From assembly GCA_030065025.1 (NCBI GenBank), contig JASJDY010000032.1:1-49051 (forward strand): 49,051 nt of DNA. The letters run 5' to 3'. Below the pieces are notes generated by a model. The model saw nothing but the letters and a program-made list of their open reading frames with translations, was not told where the DNA came from and ran no database searches. The position numbers were made by a program, and so were the translations under genes. Positions 1,447 through 11,395 of the stretch are shown one piece after another (the first letter of the stretch is position 1; each line of letters opens with the position of its first letter). The stretch comes from Planctomycetota bacterium (GTDB lineage Bacteria; Planctomycetota; PLA2; JAEUHO01).

Positions 1447-2135
1447 GCCAACGCCTCCTCCTGGTGGAAGACGACGAGAGTCTCGGCGCCGTGCTGCTCG
1501 ACGCACTCGAGAGCGAGGGCTACCGCGCCGACTGGAATCGCGACGGTCGCGCCGCGCTCGACGCAGCACTGGCCACACCGTACGACCTGGTCGTGCTCGA
1601 CCTGATGCTGCCGAGCATGGACGGCTACGAGATCTGCCGCCGATTGAGGTCCGCGGGACGCGACGTGCCGATCCTCATGCTCACCGCGCGCGGGCGTGAG
1701 GAGGATCGCGTCATGGGGCTGGACCTCGGCGCGGACGACTACGTCGTGAAGCCCTTTTCGCTCAAGGAGCTGCTCGCCCGCATCCGCGCGCGTCTCCGCG
1801 CGAAGAGGCCGGTGGCTCCGGAGCTCGTCGTGATCGGCGACGCCGAGATCGACCTCGGGGCGATGCAGATCCGGCGCGACGGGACGACCATCGCGCTCAC
1901 GAAGCTGGAGGCGGGCGTGCTCGCGCTGTTCCTCGCCAACCCCGGCCAGGTGCTCTCGCGGGCGCGCTTCCTCGACGAGGTCTGGGGCTATCACCGCCAC
2001 CCCACGACCCGCACCGTGGACATGCACGTTGCGCGCGTGCGCGAGAAGCTGGGCGACGGGGGGCCGCATCCGCGCTGGATCAAGACGGTGCACGGGATGG
2101 GGTACCGATTCGATCGGGAGGATGCTCCCGCGTAG
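1443..2135 (+). CDS. OmpR/PhoB-family response regulator
   Basis: This 230-residue protein has a receiver domain at 1-120, with acidic pair E9-D10-D11, phosphoacceptor D53 (VVLDLMLP), T81 and K103 (VVKPFS). A winged-helix DNA-binding domain fills about 130-225, with LTKLEAGVLALFL and RTVDMHVARVREKLG marking the typical transcription-factor fold and the ending GMGYRF. Length and arrangement are standard for the family. It is the cognate partner of the upstream kinase, whose stop codon overlaps its start. Genes it controls are unknown; the transporter pair immediately downstream is the obvious candidate by position only. Confidence 0.95.
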   Translation: MSQRLLLVEDDESLGAVLLDALESEGYRADWNRDGRAALDAALATPYDLVVLDLMLPSMDGYEICRRLRSAGRDVPILMLTARGREEDRVMGLDLGADDYVVKPFSLKELLARIRARLRAKRPVAPELVVIGDAEIDLGAMQIRRDGTTIALTKLEAGVLALFLANPGQVLSRARFLDEVWGYHRHPTTRTVDMHVARVREKLGDGGPHPRWIKTVHGMGYRFDREDAPA

Positions 2136-2144
2136 CGATTGCAG

Positions 2145-2150
2145 TACAGT
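2145..2150 (+). promoter_or_regulatory. -10 element TACAGT for the first SLC13-type transporter
   Basis: TACAGT ends 10 nt before the ATG at 2161, inside the 25-nt gap after the regulator. It fits the window-wide TANNNT class and supports a near-leaderless transcript and the 2161 start. Confidence 0.6.
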
Positions 2151-2160
2151 CCCCGGCCGC

Positions 2161-3981
2161 ATGGACCTCGACATCCACGGCTGGATCGCGCTCGCTACCC
2201 TCGCCGGCGCCACGACCCTCTTCCTCACCAAGTGGCTGCCGATCCCCGTGACCGCGTTGAGCATCCCGGTCGTCCTGTTCGCCACGAACGTGCTGCCCGA
2301 CGCCAAGGACGCGCTCAAGGGCTTCGGCAACCAGGCGGCGCTGGCCATCGCGGCCGTGTTCGTGCTCGGGGCGGGTCTCAAGGAGTCGGGCGTCGCCACG
2401 CTCATCGCGCGCGGCCTGCAGCGGCTGGGGGGGACCAGCGAGCCGCGCCTCATCGTGCTCCTCATGCTGGCAGCCGGCGTGCTGTCCGCCGTCATGAGCA
2501 ACGCGGCCGTCGTCGCGATCCTGCTGCCCGTCGGCATCGCCCTGGCGCACCGCTCCGGCGTCGCCGCCTCGCGCCTCCTCATGCCGCTCGCGTTCGCCGC
2601 GGTGCTCGGCGGCACGATCACGCTCATCGGGACGGCGCCGAACTTCCTCGTCGGCGACTACATCGCGCAAGAGGGCGCCAAGCTGGCCGAGGGCCTCAAG
2701 CTCACGATCTTCGACTTCGCGCCGGTCGGGCTCGCCATCCTCGCGACGGGCACGCTGTTCATGGTGCTCGTCGGCCGGCGCATGCTGCCCGAGGTCAGGC
2801 GCGAGGATCGGTTCGCGGCCGCGCAGCTGCCGGTCGAGACGGCCGAGAGCTTCGGCGTGGCCGACAAGCTCTTCGCCCTGCCCATCACCGAGCGCTGCGG
2901 CTTCGCCAACATGTCCGTCGCGGAGGCCAACATCCGCAGCCGCTACAGCCTCGGCATCGTGATGATCCACCGTCCGAAGGCCGTCGCGCAGCGCTGGATC
3001 GATCCCGAGCCCGCGCGCACGATCCGCCCCGGCGACGTGCTCTACGTGCAGGGTGAGGAGGTCGCGGCCTGGAACATCTGCGAGGAGGAAGGACTACAGT
3101 TCAGCCTCGCGGAGGCGGGTGACCTGAAGGAGATCCTGCGCCGCGGTACGACGCTCGCCGAGATCGCGCTGCCTCCGCACTCGCGTGCCGCGGGACGGAC
3201 GCCGCGCGACATGCGGTTCGGGGAGCGCTTCGGGCTCGACGTGCTCGCCGTGAGCCGCCGCGACGGCGTCATGGTGGACGCGCCCAGCGACGTCAAGCTC
3301 GAGGTCGGTGACGCGTTCCTCGTCTCCGGTCCGCCCGAGAAGGTGCATCAGATCTCGCGGCACCCCGACTTCACGGTCCTCACGGACATCTCCCAGGAAG
3401 AGGACGTCACGCGGGCGCCCATCGCGATCGGCCTGCTCTTCACCGCGCTGATCCCGCCGATCGTGCACGGCGTACCGCTGGCGGTGTCGGGTCTCGGTGC
3501 CGCGCTCCTCATGTACGCCACGGGCTGCGTCTCGAAGCGCGCCGTGCGGCGCGCGGTCGACTGGAACGTCATCTTCCTGATCGTCGGCACGCTGCCGCTC
3601 GGCATCGCGCTCGACCGCCATGACGTGGCCGCCGTGGCTGCAGGCTGGATCAGCGACCTCGGCGGCGCGACGGGGCCGATGGGCGTGTTCGGCGCGCTCT
3701 TCCTGCTCGCTGCCGGCGTGGCCGTGCTGACGAGCAACGCCGCGGCTGCCGTGATCGTGGCGCCCGTCGCCGCCCGCGCCGCGGTGGAGGCCGGCGTCGA
3801 TCTGCGCGACGCGCTGCTCGTCATGGGGTACGGCTGCAGCTGTGCGTTCCTGCTGCCGTTCGCGCAATGCAACATCCTGGTGATGGCCCCCGGCGGATAC
3901 AAGACACGCGACTTCCTGCGGATCGGCGCGTGGATGAGCCTCGTCATGGCGGTGACGACGATCGTGCTCTTCTCGTTGTGA
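2161..3981 (+). CDS. SLC13/DASS-type permease with two RCK_C (TrkA-C) domains
   Basis: The ORF track starts at 2029, inside the regulator; ATG 2161 follows a TACAGT -10 and gives MDLDIHGWIALATL, which matches the next gene's start, so 606 residues. Hydrophobic membrane blocks lie at about 5-200 and 425-606. Between them are two soluble RCK_C modules (about 220-300 and 310-395), marked by GDVLYVQGEE and GDAFLVSGPP. Transporter signatures are MSNAAVVAILLPVGIAL, LGGTITLIGTAPNFLVG and the second-repeat TSNAAAAVIVAPVA. The family imports divalent anions such as sulfate or dicarboxylates, usually with sodium; the substrate here cannot be told. RCK_C domains suggest ligand gating. Confidence 0.85.
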   Translation: MDLDIHGWIALATLAGATTLFLTKWLPIPVTALSIPVVLFATNVLPDAKDALKGFGNQAALAIAAVFVLGAGLKESGVATLIARGLQRLGGTSEPRLIVLLMLAAGVLSAVMSNAAVVAILLPVGIALAHRSGVAASRLLMPLAFAAVLGGTITLIGTAPNFLVGDYIAQEGAKLAEGLKLTIFDFAPVGLAILATGTLFMVLVGRRMLPEVRREDRFAAAQLPVETAESFGVADKLFALPITERCGFANMSVAEANIRSRYSLGIVMIHRPKAVAQRWIDPEPARTIRPGDVLYVQGEEVAAWNICEEEGLQFSLAEAGDLKEILRRGTTLAEIALPPHSRAAGRTPRDMRFGERFGLDVLAVSRRDGVMVDAPSDVKLEVGDAFLVSGPPEKVHQISRHPDFTVLTDISQEEDVTRAPIAIGLLFTALIPPIVHGVPLAVSGLGAALLMYATGCVSKRAVRRAVDWNVIFLIVGTLPLGIALDRHDVAAVAAGWISDLGGATGPMGVFGALFLLAAGVAVLTSNAAAAVIVAPVAARAAVEAGVDLRDALLVMGYGCSCAFLLPFAQCNILVMAPGGYKTRDFLRIGAWMSLVMAVTTIVLFSL

Positions 3982-4006: not shown

Positions 4007-5815
4007 ATGGAGCTGACCGTCCACGGCTGGATCGCGCTCGCGACGCTCGCCTTCGCGACGACCATGCTCATCACGCGTTGGCTGCCGATCCCGATCACGG
4101 CGCTCAGCATCCCCGTCATCCTGACCTCGACGGGCGTGCTCAGCGATCCGCGCGATGCGCTGCGTGGCTTCGGCAACAACGCCGTGATCGCCATCGGCGC
4201 CATCTTCGTGGTCGGAGCCGCGCTGCGGGAGAGCGGCGTGGCGACGTTGATCGCGCGGGGCCTGCAGCGCGTCGGCGGACGCAGCGAGACGGGCCTCGGG
4301 CTCCTGCTCATGGGGGCCACGGCGCTCATGGCGGCGTTCATGAACAACACCGCCGTCGTCGCGATCCTGCTGCCGGTCGGCGTCGTGCTCGCGCGCCGGT
4401 CCGGGCTCGCCCCCTCGCGGTTGCTGATGCCGCTCTCGTTCGCGGCCGTGCTGGGCGGCACGATCAGCCTCATCGGCACCGCCCCGAACTTCATCGTGGC
4501 CGACTACTACAACGAGGGTGACTTCGAGGGCAAGATCGGCATCTTCGACTACGCCTTCGTCGGCATACCGATCACCGTGGTCGGCGTGGTCTTCATGGCC
4601 TTCGTCGGCCGGCGCTTCCTACCGACGATCAGCACGGAGGATCGTCTCGCTGCTGCGCAGGTCCCCGAAGAGGTGGCCAGCAGCTACGCCGTGCCGGACA
4701 AGTTGTTCACGCTGCGGATCGGGGGCCACTCCCCGCTCGTGGGCAAGACGATCGCCGAGTCGGGCGTGCGCAACCAATACAGCCTCGAGATCGTGATGAT
4801 TCGCCGTCCCACGGCGCTGGCCGACAAGTGGATGCATCCGGATCCGGGGCTGCGCCTGGAGCGCGGCGACGTCCTCTACGTCAGTGGCGACGACGCGCAG
4901 GCCTGGGACATCTGCGAGGAGGAGGCGCTCCAGTTCGGGCTCGCAGATCGCGAGTCCATCAACGAGCTGCTGGGACACGGCGCGACGCTGGCCGAGGTCA
5001 CGCTCACGCCGCACTCCCCGGCCATCGGACGCACGTTCCGGCGCATGGACTTCCGCAAGCGCTTCGGTCTCAACGTGCTCGCGATCTTCCGCCGGAACGA
5101 GGTCCTCCGTGAGAACCTGCCCGAGGAGCCGCTGCAGCTGGGCGACGCGTTCCTGGTGACGGGCACGCCGCGCAACGTGCGTGCGCTCGAGCGCCATCCC
5201 GACTTCAACGTGCTCACGGATCAGAGCCAGGTCGAGGACGTCACGCGCGCACCGCTCGCCATCCTGCTCATGCTCGTGGCGCTCGTGCCGCCGATCGCGT
5301 TCGACTTCCCGCTCCCGATCAGCGCGATGGGCTCGGCGATCCTGATGGTGCTCACGCGCTGCATCTCCCGCTCGGCGCTCCGGCGCTGCATGGACTGGCC
5401 CGTGCTCGCGCTCCTCGTCGGGACGATGCCGCTCGGCACCGCGCTCGAAGAGCAGCAGATCGCCGGCGGCGTGGCGACGTTCCTCACCGATCTGAGCTCG
5501 GAGCCGCTCGTCCTGTTCGCCCTGCTCTTCGGCATGGCGGCCGTGTTCTCCAACCTCGCCAGCAACGCAGCCGCGGCCGTGATCATGGCGCCCGTCGCCG
5601 TGCGGATCGCCGCGGGCGTCGAAGGGATGGAGCCCAAGGCCGCGCTCCTGGCCATGGCCTACGGCTGCTCCTGCAACTTCATCGTCCCCTTCTCGCAGTG
5701 CAACCTGATCGTGATGGCGCCCGGCGGCTATCGCGCGCTCGACTACATCCGTACGGGGCTGGCGCTGTCCTTCGTCATGGCCGCCACGACGATCATCACG
5801 CTCTCGTTCATGTGA
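4007..5815 (+). CDS. SLC13/DASS-type permease with RCK_C domains, tandem paralogue
   Basis: At 602 residues it has the same layout as the preceding gene: membrane block (MELTVHGWIALATLAFATTM onward), two RCK_C modules (GDVLYVSGDD and GDAFLVTGTP) and a second membrane block. Signatures are MNNTAVVAILLPVGVVL, LGGTISLIGTAPNFIV, ASNAAAAVIMAPVAV and the late CSCNFIVPFSQCN. The two genes align along their whole length, so this is a local duplication. The first-repeat motif differs (NNT here, SNA in the neighbour). In DASS carriers the two SNT motifs help bind sodium and substrate, so the copies may differ in ion or substrate preference; that is inference. Confidence 0.85.
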   Translation: MELTVHGWIALATLAFATTMLITRWLPIPITALSIPVILTSTGVLSDPRDALRGFGNNAVIAIGAIFVVGAALRESGVATLIARGLQRVGGRSETGLGLLLMGATALMAAFMNNTAVVAILLPVGVVLARRSGLAPSRLLMPLSFAAVLGGTISLIGTAPNFIVADYYNEGDFEGKIGIFDYAFVGIPITVVGVVFMAFVGRRFLPTISTEDRLAAAQVPEEVASSYAVPDKLFTLRIGGHSPLVGKTIAESGVRNQYSLEIVMIRRPTALADKWMHPDPGLRLERGDVLYVSGDDAQAWDICEEEALQFGLADRESINELLGHGATLAEVTLTPHSPAIGRTFRRMDFRKRFGLNVLAIFRRNEVLRENLPEEPLQLGDAFLVTGTPRNVRALERHPDFNVLTDQSQVEDVTRAPLAILLMLVALVPPIAFDFPLPISAMGSAILMVLTRCISRSALRRCMDWPVLALLVGTMPLGTALEEQQIAGGVATFLTDLSSEPLVLFALLFGMAAVFSNLASNAAAAVIMAPVAVRIAAGVEGMEPKAALLAMAYGCSCNFIVPFSQCNLIVMAPGGYRALDYIRTGLALSFVMAATTIITLSFM

Positions 5816-7050: not shown

Positions 7051-8238
7051 CTACACCCTCTCCACGAGCGTCGCGAGGCCCAGGCCACCGCTGATGCAGA
7101 GCGTGGCCACGCCGCGCTTGGCGTCGCGCTCCTCCATCGCGTGCAGGAGCGTCACCAGGATGCGCGCGCCGGTTGCACCGATCGGGTGGCCGAGCGCGAT
7201 CGCGCCGCCGTCCACGTTCAGCTTCTCCTCGGGGATGTTCAGCTCGCGGTTGCAGGCGAGCACCTGCGCGGCGAACGCCTCGTTGAGCTCCCAGAGGTCG
7301 ATGTCGTCCACCGTGAGGCCCGTCTGGTCGAGGAGCTTGCGCACGGCCGGCACCGGGCCGATGCCCATCACCTTCGGATCGACACCCGCCTCCGTGTAGG
7401 CGAGGAGCTTCGCCTGGGGCGTGACGCCGTGCTTCTCGACGGCCTTCTCGGACAGCACGCAGATCGCTGCCGCGCCGTCCGTGATGCCGCTCGCGTTGCC
7501 GGCGTGCACCGTGCCGCCCTCCTTGCGGAAGACGGGCGGCAGCTTGGCCATCTTCTCGATCGTCACGCCGTCGCGCGCATGCTCGTCGGCGGTGAAGGTC
7601 CACTCGCCCTTCTTGCGGTCCTTGAGCGGGATGCCGACCTTCTCTGCGTCGAAGCGGCCGCGCCCTCGGGCCTCCTCGCAGCGAGCCTGGCTCTGGGCGG
7701 CGTAGCGATCCTGGTCCTCGCGCGAGATGTCGTACTGGTCCACGAGGTTCTCGGCCGTCGCGCCCATCAGCTGGTCGGCGAGCATGCAGTGGAAGCCGTC
7801 GCGGTACATGCCGTCCACGACCTGGTCGTTGCCCAGTCGGTACCCCCAGCGCGCGCGCGGCAGGAAGTAGGGCGTGTTCGACATGCTCTCCATGCCACCG
7901 GCCAGGATCGCGTCGGCCTGGCCCAGGCGGATGGCGTCCGCGCCCAGGTGCACGGTCTTGAGCCCGCTGCCGCAGGCCATGTTGATCGTCCACGCCGGCG
8001 CCTCGACGGGCACCCCCGTCCGGACCGACACCTGGCGGCCCGGCCCGGGCCCCTGGCCGGCCTGCCGGCCGTGCCCGAACAGGGTCTGGTCGATGGCCGC
8101 GGGCGGCACGCCTGCCCGCTCCAGCGCCGCCTTCGAGGCGTGGACGCCCAGGTCGGGAGCAGAGAGGCCCGCCAGGGAGCCGCCGAACTTGCCGATGGGG
8201 GTGCGTACGCCCCCTGCGAGGTAGATGCCGTCGAGCAC
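7051..8238 (-). CDS. Acetyl-CoA C-acetyltransferase (thiolase)
   Basis: The track merges this gene with upstream open sequence (to 9822). The true start is most likely GTG 8238, preceded by GGGAGG, giving 395 residues, the normal thiolase length. It begins [20 protein letters not shown]. The acyl-accepting cysteine is C89 (NMACGSGLK), the [10 protein letters not shown] histidine loop lies near 350, and the second catalytic cysteine is C381 ([12 protein letters not shown]), with [10 protein letters not shown] before it. It condenses or cleaves acetoacetyl-CoA in the cytoplasm; a role in fatty-acid breakdown, isoprenoid supply or polyhydroxyalkanoate synthesis cannot be chosen because no pathway genes are adjacent. 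It is divergent from the MqnD-like gene. Confidence 0.93.
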
Positions 8239-8312: not shown

Positions 8313-8318
8313 TAGCCT
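8313..8318 (+). promoter_or_regulatory. -10 element TAGCCT for the H1-tail/MqnD-like gene
   Basis: TAGCCT lies 22 nt before ATG 8341; the leader carries AGGAGA. The leadered class again. Confidence 0.5.
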
Positions 8319-8340
8319 TGCCCGCCGGCAGGAGAGGCCC

Positions 8341-9477
8341 ATGGCCGCGAAGAAGAAGGCAGCGAAGAAGAAGGCGGCGGCCAAGAAGGCGGCCAAGAAG
8401 AAGGCTGCGCCGAAGAAGAAGGCCGCGGCCAAGAAGACCGCCAAGAAGGCGCCCGCGAAGAAGAAGGCCGCCAAGAAGACCGCCAAGAAGGCGGCGAAGA
8501 AGGCGGCCAAGAAGACCGCGGCGGCGCCCGCCGTTCCCGCCGAGGACCTCCCTGAGGAGGAGCTCGAGGAAGAGCCGGTCGAGCTGCTGCCGCCGATGCC
8601 CAAGATGCCGCCGCGCAAGGCGGGTCCCATCACGCTGGCCTACGGTGGCGCCTCCGACCAGGCCTTCATGGTCTTCGCCCTGGCCGCGGAGCAGGTCGAC
8701 ACCGAGGACCGTACGTACGAGCTGGTCCGCCGCGAGATCCAGGAGCTCGAGGCGGAGGCCGAGAAGGTCGTGCACGACGTCACGGCGATCAGCTTCGGCG
8801 CGTACCCGCGTCTGCGGGATCGCTACCTGCTGCTCGCGTGCGGCGGTGCGTACGGTGACCACCAGGGACCGATCCTCGTCGCGCGCAAGCCGATTCGCGC
8901 CGGTGAGGTCGAGGGGCTCGAGGTCGCCGTGCCGGGCGAGGACTCGTCGGCGGCGCTCGCGCTGCGTCTCTGGCTGCCGCAGGCCAACCTGAAACTGAAG
9001 CCGATGCCCGTGCGCGAGATCTCGCTTCGCGTGCGCGCCGGCCATGTGCGCGCGGGCCTGCTCGTGAACGAGGACATCGTCACGTACCGCAACCACAACC
9101 TCGTGCGCATCGTGGACCTCGGCCAGTGGTGGGGCGACCGTACGGAGGGGCTGCCGATCGCGCTCACCGCCAACGTCATCCGACGCGACATCCCCGAGGA
9201 GCTGCGCGTCAAGATCGCGCTCGATCTCAAGCGCTCGATCGCGTACGCCCTCGGCCATCGCGAGGAGGCGCTCGACTGGGCGATGCAGTTCGCGGGCCGC
9301 AACGTGCGCGAGACGCTCGATCGCTTCGTGGGGCGCTACGTCAACGACCTGTCGCTCGACTGCGGCGAGCGTGGGCGTCAGGCGGCGCGGCTGCTCTTCC
9401 AGGAGGGCGCGCGGCACCGCTTCCTCGATGAGGCGTACGAGCCGGTCTACCACGGGGACGAAGCGGCCAACGAGTAG
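8341..9477 (+). CDS. Histone H1-like basic tail fused to an MqnD-like domain
   Basis: ATG 8341 follows AGGAGA; 378 residues. Residues 1-62 are almost only Lys and Ala with Pro (AAKKKAAKKK-type repeats), as in histone H1-like DNA-binding tails. An acidic, proline-rich hinge (EEELEEEP) follows to about 90. Residues 95-370 resemble 1,4-dihydroxy-6-naphthoate synthase (MqnD), the last dedicated ring-forming enzyme of futalosine menaquinone synthesis: LLLACGGAYGDHQGPILVA, VDLGQWWGDRTEGLPIA, SIAYALGHREEALDWA and YVNDLSLDCGERG. The MqnD active-site His, in the family's IHE motif, is replaced by N243 (LLVNED). So the fold is well supported but catalysis is doubtful. No other mqn gene is in the window. 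Confidence 0.75.
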   Translation: MAAKKKAAKKKAAAKKAAKKKAAPKKKAAAKKTAKKAPAKKKAAKKTAKKAAKKAAKKTAAAPAVPAEDLPEEELEEEPVELLPPMPKMPPRKAGPITLAYGGASDQAFMVFALAAEQVDTEDRTYELVRREIQELEAEAEKVVHDVTAISFGAYPRLRDRYLLLACGGAYGDHQGPILVARKPIRAGEVEGLEVAVPGEDSSAALALRLWLPQANLKLKPMPVREISLRVRAGHVRAGLLVNEDIVTYRNHNLVRIVDLGQWWGDRTEGLPIALTANVIRRDIPEELRVKIALDLKRSIAYALGHREEALDWAMQFAGRNVRETLDRFVGRYVNDLSLDCGERGRQAARLLFQEGARHRFLDEAYEPVYHGDEAANE

Positions 9478-9522: not shown

Positions 9523-10236
9523 ATGCGCCTCCTGCTCCTCGCCCTCTTCCTCACCGCCTGCACCCCGTCCCCGCCGTCCGGCCCGCCCGCGCTCGTCCTC
9601 GCGCACGAGGTCCTCACGATCGGGGAGGTGCCCGGTGACACCTTCGCCGTCGTCCGTGTCCCGTGGCGCCGGACCGGAGCGGGGACCCTGCGTGTGCTCG
9701 CCGTCGAGACCGACTGCGGTTGCGCCGTCGCCGAGGGGCCCCGCGGTGACCAGCCGGCCGGCGCACGCGGTGAGATCGTCGTCCGCGTCCACGGCCTTCG
9801 CCGGGCCGGGCCCTTCGCGCACCGGGTGACCGTCTACACGGATCAGCGCCCGCCGCGCGACCGGGTCTCGTGCCGCCTCCGCGGCTGGACGGGAAGGCCC
9901 GCCGCGTTCGCGCCGGGCGCGCTCGCGCTGGGCCCCCGCTCCCCGCGCGCCAGCCTCACGCGAGACGTCGAGCTGCGCCTCGACCCGTCCGTGGATGCGC
10001 CGGATCTCACCGTGCGCCTGACGGGCGTCGCCGGCACCGCGAGTCTGCTACCGCCGGCGCGGCCGGCCGTGCCGGGGCGCCTGCTGCTGCTCGAGTTGGA
10101 GGCGCCCGCGGAGCCGGGGCCCTTCACGGCGCAGGTGGAACTCGCCCGCGGCTCGCGGGTGCTCGCGGTGCTGCCGATCCGCGGTCGCGTCAGACTGCCG
10201 CGCCGAGGACCCCCAGGTCGTGGCCGACCTCGGTGA
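9523..10236 (+). CDS. DUF1573-like lipoprotein
   Basis: The 237-residue product has a short lipoprotein signal ([13 protein letters not shown]), lipid-modified cysteine C13, so it is membrane-anchored outside the cytoplasm. Residues 30-110 carry the DUF1573 pattern: [12 protein letters not shown], then [10 protein letters not shown], then [10 protein letters not shown] and [14 protein letters not shown]. Such domains are Ig-like, often with the paired cysteine motif seen here. The rest (110-237) is a second beta-rich region with no clear match. Its last 47 nt overlap, in convergent orientation, the end of kbl. No clear Shine-Dalgarno or TANNNT precedes ATG 9523; the bases before it read GTAGGGGC. 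Confidence 0.75.
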
Positions 10237-11395
10237 ACGCCGTGATCGCCTTGTCGATGTCCTCGTCCGAGTGCGCCGCCGAGAGCTGGACGCGGATGCG
10301 CGCCTGGCCCTTGGGCACCACCGGGTACGAGAAGCCGATGACGTAGATGCCCTTGGCGAGCATCGCGTCGGCCATCTGCATGCTGAGGCGGGCATCGCCC
10401 AGCATGATCGGGACGATCGGGTGGATGCCGGGCCGGATGTCGAAGCCGGCGGCCGTCATGCCCTCCCGGAAGCGCATCGTGTTGGCCTCGAGCTTGTCGC
10501 GCAGCTCCGTCGTTCCGCTGAGCAGGTCCATGCATGCGATCGACGCCGCGACGATGGGCGGCGCCACGGTGTTGCTGAACAGGTACGGACGCGAGCGCTG
10601 GCGCAGGAGGTCGACGATCTCCTTGCGCGCAGCCGTGAAGCCGCCCGACGCGCCGCCGAGGGCCTTGCCCAGCGTCGACGTGATGATGTCGACGCGGTCC
10701 TGCACGCCGTGGTGCTCGGGCGTGCCGCGCCCGGTCTTGCCGATGAAGCCGGTTGCGTGCGAGTCGTCGACGAGCACCATTGCCTCGAAGCGTTCGGCGA
10801 TGTCGCAAACCTCGTCGAGCTTCGCGATGTCGCCGTCCATGCTGAACACGCCGTCTGTCGCGACCAGCACGCGGCGCGCCCCGCCCTCACGGGCCTCGGT
10901 GAGCTTCGCCTCGAGGTCGGCCATGTCGTCGTGCGCGTAGCGGAAGCGCTTGGCCTTGCAGAGACGGATGCCGTCGATGATCGACGCGTGGTTCAGGCTC
11001 GCGGAGACGATGGCGTCCTCCGCGCTCAGCAGGGTCTCGAACAGGCCGCCGTTGGCGTCGAAGCAGGACGTGTAGAGGATCGCGGCCTCCTGGCCCACGA
11101 ACTCGGCGACGCGCCGCTCGAGCTCGGTGTGCTGGTCCTGCGTGCCGCAGATGAAGCGCACGGAGGCCATGCCGTAGCCGCGCTCGTCGAGCTCCTTGCG
11201 GACGGCGTCGACCAGCGCCGGATGGTTGGCGAGGCCGAGGTAGTTGTTGGCGCAGAAGTTGATCACCTCCTGCCCGTCCTGGACGCGGATGTGCGCGCTC
11301 TGCGGCGTCACGATGATGCGTTCATGCTTCGTGAGGCCGCCCGCCTCGATCTCGTCCAGCTCCTGTTGGAACCCAGCACGTACGGTATCGAACAT
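10190..11395 (-). CDS. kbl: Glycine C-acetyltransferase (2-amino-3-ketobutyrate CoA ligase)
   Basis: A full-length 401-residue alpha-oxoamine synthase. The pyridoxal-phosphate lysine is K244 in [14 protein letters not shown], and the cofactor aspartate motif is [13 protein letters not shown] (D210, D211, H213). [14 protein letters not shown] near the N-terminus and [16 protein letters not shown] are typical of Kbl rather than of AONS or ALAS. It converts 2-amino-3-oxobutyrate and CoA to glycine and acetyl-CoA, the second step of threonine breakdown. The usual partner tdh is not adjacent. A strong GGAGG precedes ATG 11395, and a TACCCT -10 lies 22 nt upstream. The 3' end overlaps the DUF1573 gene. 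Confidence 0.95.

Follow-up and report, generated by a model that had tools for sequence, protein, structure and literature searches.

The protein encoded at positions 8341 to 9477 (+ strand) of the window, that is, the whole analyzed stretch of 49,051 nucleotides from a Planctomycetota bacterium, is best explained, with a probability of roughly 60%, as a relict of the menaquinone enzyme MqnD. It acquired a basic tail while still an enzyme and was kept, without its catalytic residues and likely as a binding or scaffold protein associated with the nucleoid or with RNA, after the futalosine pathway had been exchanged for the classical Men pathway.

The open reading frame comprises 378 residues and a stop codon, and orthologues were found in all 12 genomes of its GTDB family, a set of drafts (70–93% complete) that includes the genome of the window (G000; 285 contigs, 89% complete). 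The Lys/Ala-rich basic tail (residues 1–59; 8341–8517, +) was delimited by its composition, the first 60 residues containing 29 K/R and no D/E, and a basic start was conserved in the orthologues. Directly after the tail, the sequences of the window protein and its orthologues revealed an acidic, proline-rich hinge (residues 60–94; 8518–8622, +), AEDLPEEELEEEPVE, and this is followed by a PF02621 VitK2_biosynth (MqnD-type) domain (residues 98–356; 8632–9408, +), which was detected by Pfam with an E-value of 1.8e-53 and 182 bits (cut-off 26) over profile positions 2–250 of 252. The best solved relatives were Thermus MqnD (2czl, E = 2.6e-42) and Archaeoglobus AF1704 (1zbm, E = 2.6e-37). In the alignment to 2czl, N243 (AAC; 9067–9069, +) falls under the His of the Thermus motif LIIHES, namely His145, reportedly the catalytic residue (Arai et al. 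2009). These data confirmed the original prediction in that a Lys/Ala tail and an acidic hinge precede a full MqnD-type domain with Asn at the position of the active-site His. A structure prediction of the domain gave a mean pLDDT of 32.5, and the model was discarded.

A Shine–Dalgarno sequence AGGAG (8330–8334, +) precedes the ATG by 6 nt, and the same or a near variant is present in most family genomes. A −10-like TAGCCT (8313–8318, +) forms part of a GTAGCCTT motif conserved at the same place in 12 of 12 family genomes, with the variant GTACCCTT in G009; a sigma-70 consensus scan of the intergenic region scored no promoter, this box included. The start at 8341 is credible because of the AGGAG and the conserved −10-like motif, and since all 12 orthologues carry the tail, it is neither a chance feature nor the product of a mis-called start. 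It is most natural to place the start of translation at 8341, so that the tail is included, and a short leader would be implied.

A PF02621 search over the 285 contigs of G000 returned a single protein, the one in the window; neither MqnA nor a second, canonical MqnD, for which the original prediction had suggested a check, was found. MqnC and MqnE were not found in this genome either, the best match to the MqnC model reaching 22.7 bits against a cut-off of 428. Of the combination named beforehand as speaking against a non-synthase, a sole mqnD together with intact mqnABC, the sole copy was thus borne out, and the intact set was not, with mqnA and mqnC being absent. Three other family genomes (G001, G002, and G011) possess a second PF02621 protein with an (S/P)YLNA(V/I)PL start, which we identify from this motif as MqnA, along with MqnC over the cut-off and, next to it, another member of this radical-SAM family, here taken as MqnE. 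In these three, the MqnD retains His (IIHEGQLTY, LIHERQLTW) and already carries the basic tail, and the residue at this position in the nine other family genomes is N (seven genomes), T (G010), or D (G009). MqnA as well as the MqnC and MqnE pair were accordingly distributed as 3/3 among His-bearing versus 0/9 among His-less family genomes.

The classical pathway displayed the opposite distribution. MenB over the cut-off was detected in eight of the nine His-less genomes, in none of the three His-bearing ones, and in none of five sister-family genomes; MenA occurred in the same eight and again in 0/3; and MenD was detected in six of nine (split over two contigs in one case), 0/3, and 0/5, respectively. 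In G000, a menF-menD-menB-menA-menE(-like) cluster is located on contig C270 (L055:3345–11403; menF, menD, menB, and menE identified by NCBIfam), and menB, menA, and menC lie together on contig C97 of G004 (NCBIfam). The classical Men pathway has thus taken the place of the lost futalosine pathway. The remaining His-less genome, G010 (93% complete), contains neither futalosine nor classical Men genes over the cut-off and keeps the tailed His-to-Thr protein; as the men genes are clustered, they could lie in its missing 7%, or the organism may make no quinone and be an auxotroph for it. The two pathways were found together in only one of 1,294 proteomes, that of Stackebrandtia nassauensis, and the five Planctomycetes in this 2014 survey had the futalosine route only (PMC3914697), with which the planctomycete men cluster on C270 contrasts.

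In the maximum-likelihood tree, the nine His-less proteins formed one clade (support 100/99) nested among the His-bearing proteins, with the His-bearing protein of G011 as its sister and those of G001 and G002 outside. Given this single nested clade, His was lost once, after the tail had been gained. The His loss went along with the pathway swap, and because the swap is a single event, the correlation between His and pathway is one without an independent replicate. The tree, along with the shared divergent thiolase gene and other neighbors, indicated that the window protein is orthologous to the His-bearing MqnDs of the family. Outside the family, His was kept in 68 of 68 Planctomycetota MqnDs, of which four belong to the sister family and 64 to other families, and a Lys-rich tail was seen in none of them. 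The search for further tailed or Asn-bearing homologues proposed in the original prediction thus yielded the tail in 12/12 and Asn in 7/12 family genomes. A search of genome contigs for relatives by patterns including the repetitive tail returned one relative, Planctomycetota bacterium isolate Ww498 (JAHEIK010000093.1). The two families of the order were observed to differ in the type of MqnD, that of the sister family (L028–L031) grouping with Thermus MqnD (100/100) and that of the window's family with other Planctomycetota. A tailed protein common to the whole order was rejected, as the sister family has an untailed Thermus-type MqnD.

The 32 columns conserved at ≥98.5% in 67 His-bearing sequences were compared with the nine His-less proteins (Thermus numbering). 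The canonical residues at S9, P10, D14, N43, T106, Y126 (canonically F), and H145 were kept in 0/9, although the first five are each 99–100% conserved in the 67 His-bearing relatives; I144 was kept in one of the nine, and P175 and G177 in two each. We take the lost positions, from knowledge of the family, to lie in the ligand-binding loops of the periplasmic-binding-protein (PBP)-type fold. Meanwhile, about twenty of the other columns (e.g., the hinge GP, PG, E146, W166, LP, S200, and YVN) were retained in all or nearly all His-less proteins. Within the His-less clade, the column entropy was 1.16 bits for the lost columns, 0.13 for the kept ones, and 0.90 for ordinary ones; as the lost columns are near the ordinary level and the kept ones low, relaxation to the background level is seen in the pocket but not in the scaffold.

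Compared with MqnD (1,4-dihydroxy-6-naphthoate synthase; Thermus TTHA1568, PDB 2czl/3a3u), the window protein possesses the same PF02621 domain at full length, but with N for His145, with S9, P10, D14, N43, and T106 replaced, with a basic N-terminal tail, and without the partner enzymes in the genome. MqnA (chorismate dehydratase) belongs to the same Pfam family; its (S/P)YLNA(V/I)PL motif (L015–L017), however, is missing from the window protein, which falls with MqnD. According to PMC10211241, a pseudoenzyme is characterized by a lost catalytic motif, a conserved fold, and a gene under selection. The window protein exhibits lost catalytic residues, an intact gene, and purifying selection, and is thus probably a selected MqnD-derived pseudoenzyme and not a naphthoate synthase. 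The original claim that it is not a menaquinone synthase was strongly supported by the absence of mqnA, mqnC, and mqnE, by the further pocket residues lost, and by the Men pathway present instead.

The same columns bear on the reading that comes second to a non-catalytic binding or scaffold protein, namely a neofunctionalized enzyme in which a rebuilt pocket (Q107, E/D137, S202, N/T/D243, D/E245) acts on another small molecule and the tail serves as a localization or solubility device. Some former active-site positions have indeed been fixed anew in the His-less proteins, such as G102 (9/9), Q107 (8/9), S202 (8/9), and the acidic residues 137 and 245 (9/9 each). Nevertheless, the lost pocket columns are, as a group, as variable as ordinary ones, three different residues (N, T, or D) occur at position 243 itself, and the only metabolic neighbors hinting at a substrate are the adjacent thiolase and kbl genes, which makes a new enzyme unlikely. 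Rebuilding of the pocket as a whole found no support in the column entropy.

The tail was present in every family orthologue but varied considerably, the extension containing from 11 to 31 Lys (12 in G007, 31 in G000). It matched the histone H1-like model NF038053 weakly (33 bits, below the cut-off of 80), and the window protein scored 11.6 bits against the histone H1-like PF07382 (cut-off 40), so the likeness is one of composition only. A KKAAKK pattern searched at the DNA level gave 39 matches at about 13 loci in G000, versus one match for the reversed control, and such a tail was found at either end of at least ten unrelated proteins of this genome (contigs C29, C30, C58, C102, C144, C145, C165, C198, C203, and C280). 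In all, the tail recurs on about a dozen further proteins of G000, most of which act on DNA or RNA. Within the order, the motif is common in the window's genus but has a patchy distribution outside it. The carriers read included Rho, endonuclease III, DNA topoisomerase I, proteins of TopoVI-A/Spo11-like, Tex-like, and YjbR type, and, where one contig ends, a short stretch resembling a histone, but a kinase-PPPase, trigger factor, and two proteins without a Pfam match were among them as well. The bacterial TopoVI-A/Spo11-like protein (L163, on C58) bears a long H1-like N-terminal tail. In the G008 orthologue of the window protein (L007), the C-terminus also carries a tail, EEARKIKEAKAAAAAKAKAKAEAEAAKLAEEEGQ, which is of low complexity and consists of Ala, Lys, and Glu.

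Lys-rich low-complexity regions of prokaryotes are reported to be overrepresented in proteins that bind DNA or RNA and to confer unspecific binding (PMC6821194, where the Streptomyces topoisomerase I lysine repeats are cited as well). The KKAAKK-type repeats of the window protein resemble such Lys/Ala tails (histone H1-like/HC2, topoisomerase I lysine repeats), but here they are joined to a metabolic-enzyme domain and do not reach the curated cut-offs set for the H1-like families. The best single guess would be that the tail tethers the protein to DNA or RNA, which is plausible because Rho, TopA, TopoVI-A, EndoIII, Tex, and the YjbR protein carry the same tail in G000. As the tail is variable and occurs on trigger factor and a kinase-PPPase as well, it need not mean DNA.

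A divergent acetyl-CoA acetyltransferase (thiolase)-like gene (7051–8238, −; start inferred as GTG at 8238) adjoins the tailed gene in 12 of 12 family genomes, the two genes being inverted together in G011. Transporter and TPR-like neighbors recur around the tailed gene in the family contigs read, and a kbl-like (2-amino-3-ketobutyrate CoA ligase) gene (10190–11395, −; named by inspection) is a neighbor in G008 and G010 as well. The conserved SLC13/TrkA-C-like transporter gene (4007–5815, +; named by inspection) adjoins a paralogous transporter gene (2029–3981) with a common start motif (DIHGWIALATLA/TVHGWIALATLA). In the family genomes read, it is the second of these two that stays beside the thiolase-MqnD pair.

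The divergent arrangement in all 12 genomes, together with a periplasmic-binding-type fold joined to a basic tail, would also suit a DNA-bound ligand sensor or transcription regulator, for instance of the thiolase gene, with a quinone precursor or some other aromatic acid as its ligand; in part, this reading is contained in the preferred explanation. The layout is that of LysR-type regulators, in which the DNA-contacting part is N-terminal to a PBP-type domain, but the window protein lacks their N-terminal winged HTH and has an unspecific, basic tail instead. No HTH or sequence-specific DNA-binding domain was found in it with Pfam and NCBIfam at E-values up to 1. An operator sought in the thiolase/MqnD intergenic region was rejected, since the conserved blocks resemble, by eye, two divergent −10 boxes. 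The ancestral pocket is moreover degraded, and a sensor of naphthoate intermediates is unlikely because both the pathway and the pocket are gone. The regulatory or ligand-sensing role originally proposed was therefore weakened by the missing HTH and, as regards the original substrate, by the relaxed pocket, and we consider such a regulator rather unlikely.

That the gene is decaying toward loss with a functionless tail, for which the lost catalytic residues and relaxed pocket columns could be adduced, is very improbable: the frame is open in nine genomes of four genera, 25 of the most conserved scaffold columns are near-invariant, residues such as R332, C341, and H371 have been newly fixed in the His-less clade, and the domain dN/dS was 0.12–0.20 within the genus and 0.32 between genera (G000–G008), with 0.30 for the His-bearing pair G001–G002. 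By these measures, the tailed gene is not decaying. Continued synthesis of naphthoate or a variant, with the rest of the futalosine pathway hidden by the incompleteness of the draft assemblies, is scarcely credible, as MqnA, MqnC, and MqnE are absent in 9/9 genomes with Men genes instead in eight, and His is present in 71 of 71 His-bearing relatives examined and missing in 9/9.

The explanation as a retained MqnD relict proceeds as follows. The sequences show that the MqnD of the family ancestor gained its basic N-terminal tail while still an enzyme; one sub-lineage lost mqnA, mqnC, and mqnE, nearly all of its members now having men genes. Rather than being deleted, MqnD lost the catalytic His and several pocket residues, with scaffold and tail remaining under selection. 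The tail may hold the domain on DNA or RNA, as may also be the case for Rho, TopA, TopoVI-A, and EndoIII in G000, and the tethered MqnD may already have served a second purpose, without catalysis, when the swap occurred, because of which the His-less protein would have survived it. At present it would most likely act as a binding or scaffold protein on the nucleoid or on RNA, expressed from a promoter region probably held in common with the divergent thiolase gene. A more specific version, in which the menaquinone enzyme, once tethered, took on a function at the level of DNA or RNA while still catalytic and, upon the pathway exchange, stayed on as a nucleoid-associated binding protein without catalysis, is put forward tentatively, as possible rather than probable.

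No description of such a tailed, His-less MqnD-type protein was found in the open-access literature searched. Both the futalosine and the Men state occur within this one family, in which the leftover enzyme has kept its original locus, and the family provides a sequence series for an enzyme losing its active site but not its gene. The hypothesis of moonlighting before loss would thus be directly testable by setting the tailed and presumably active MqnD of the sister genera against its tailed His-less counterpart.
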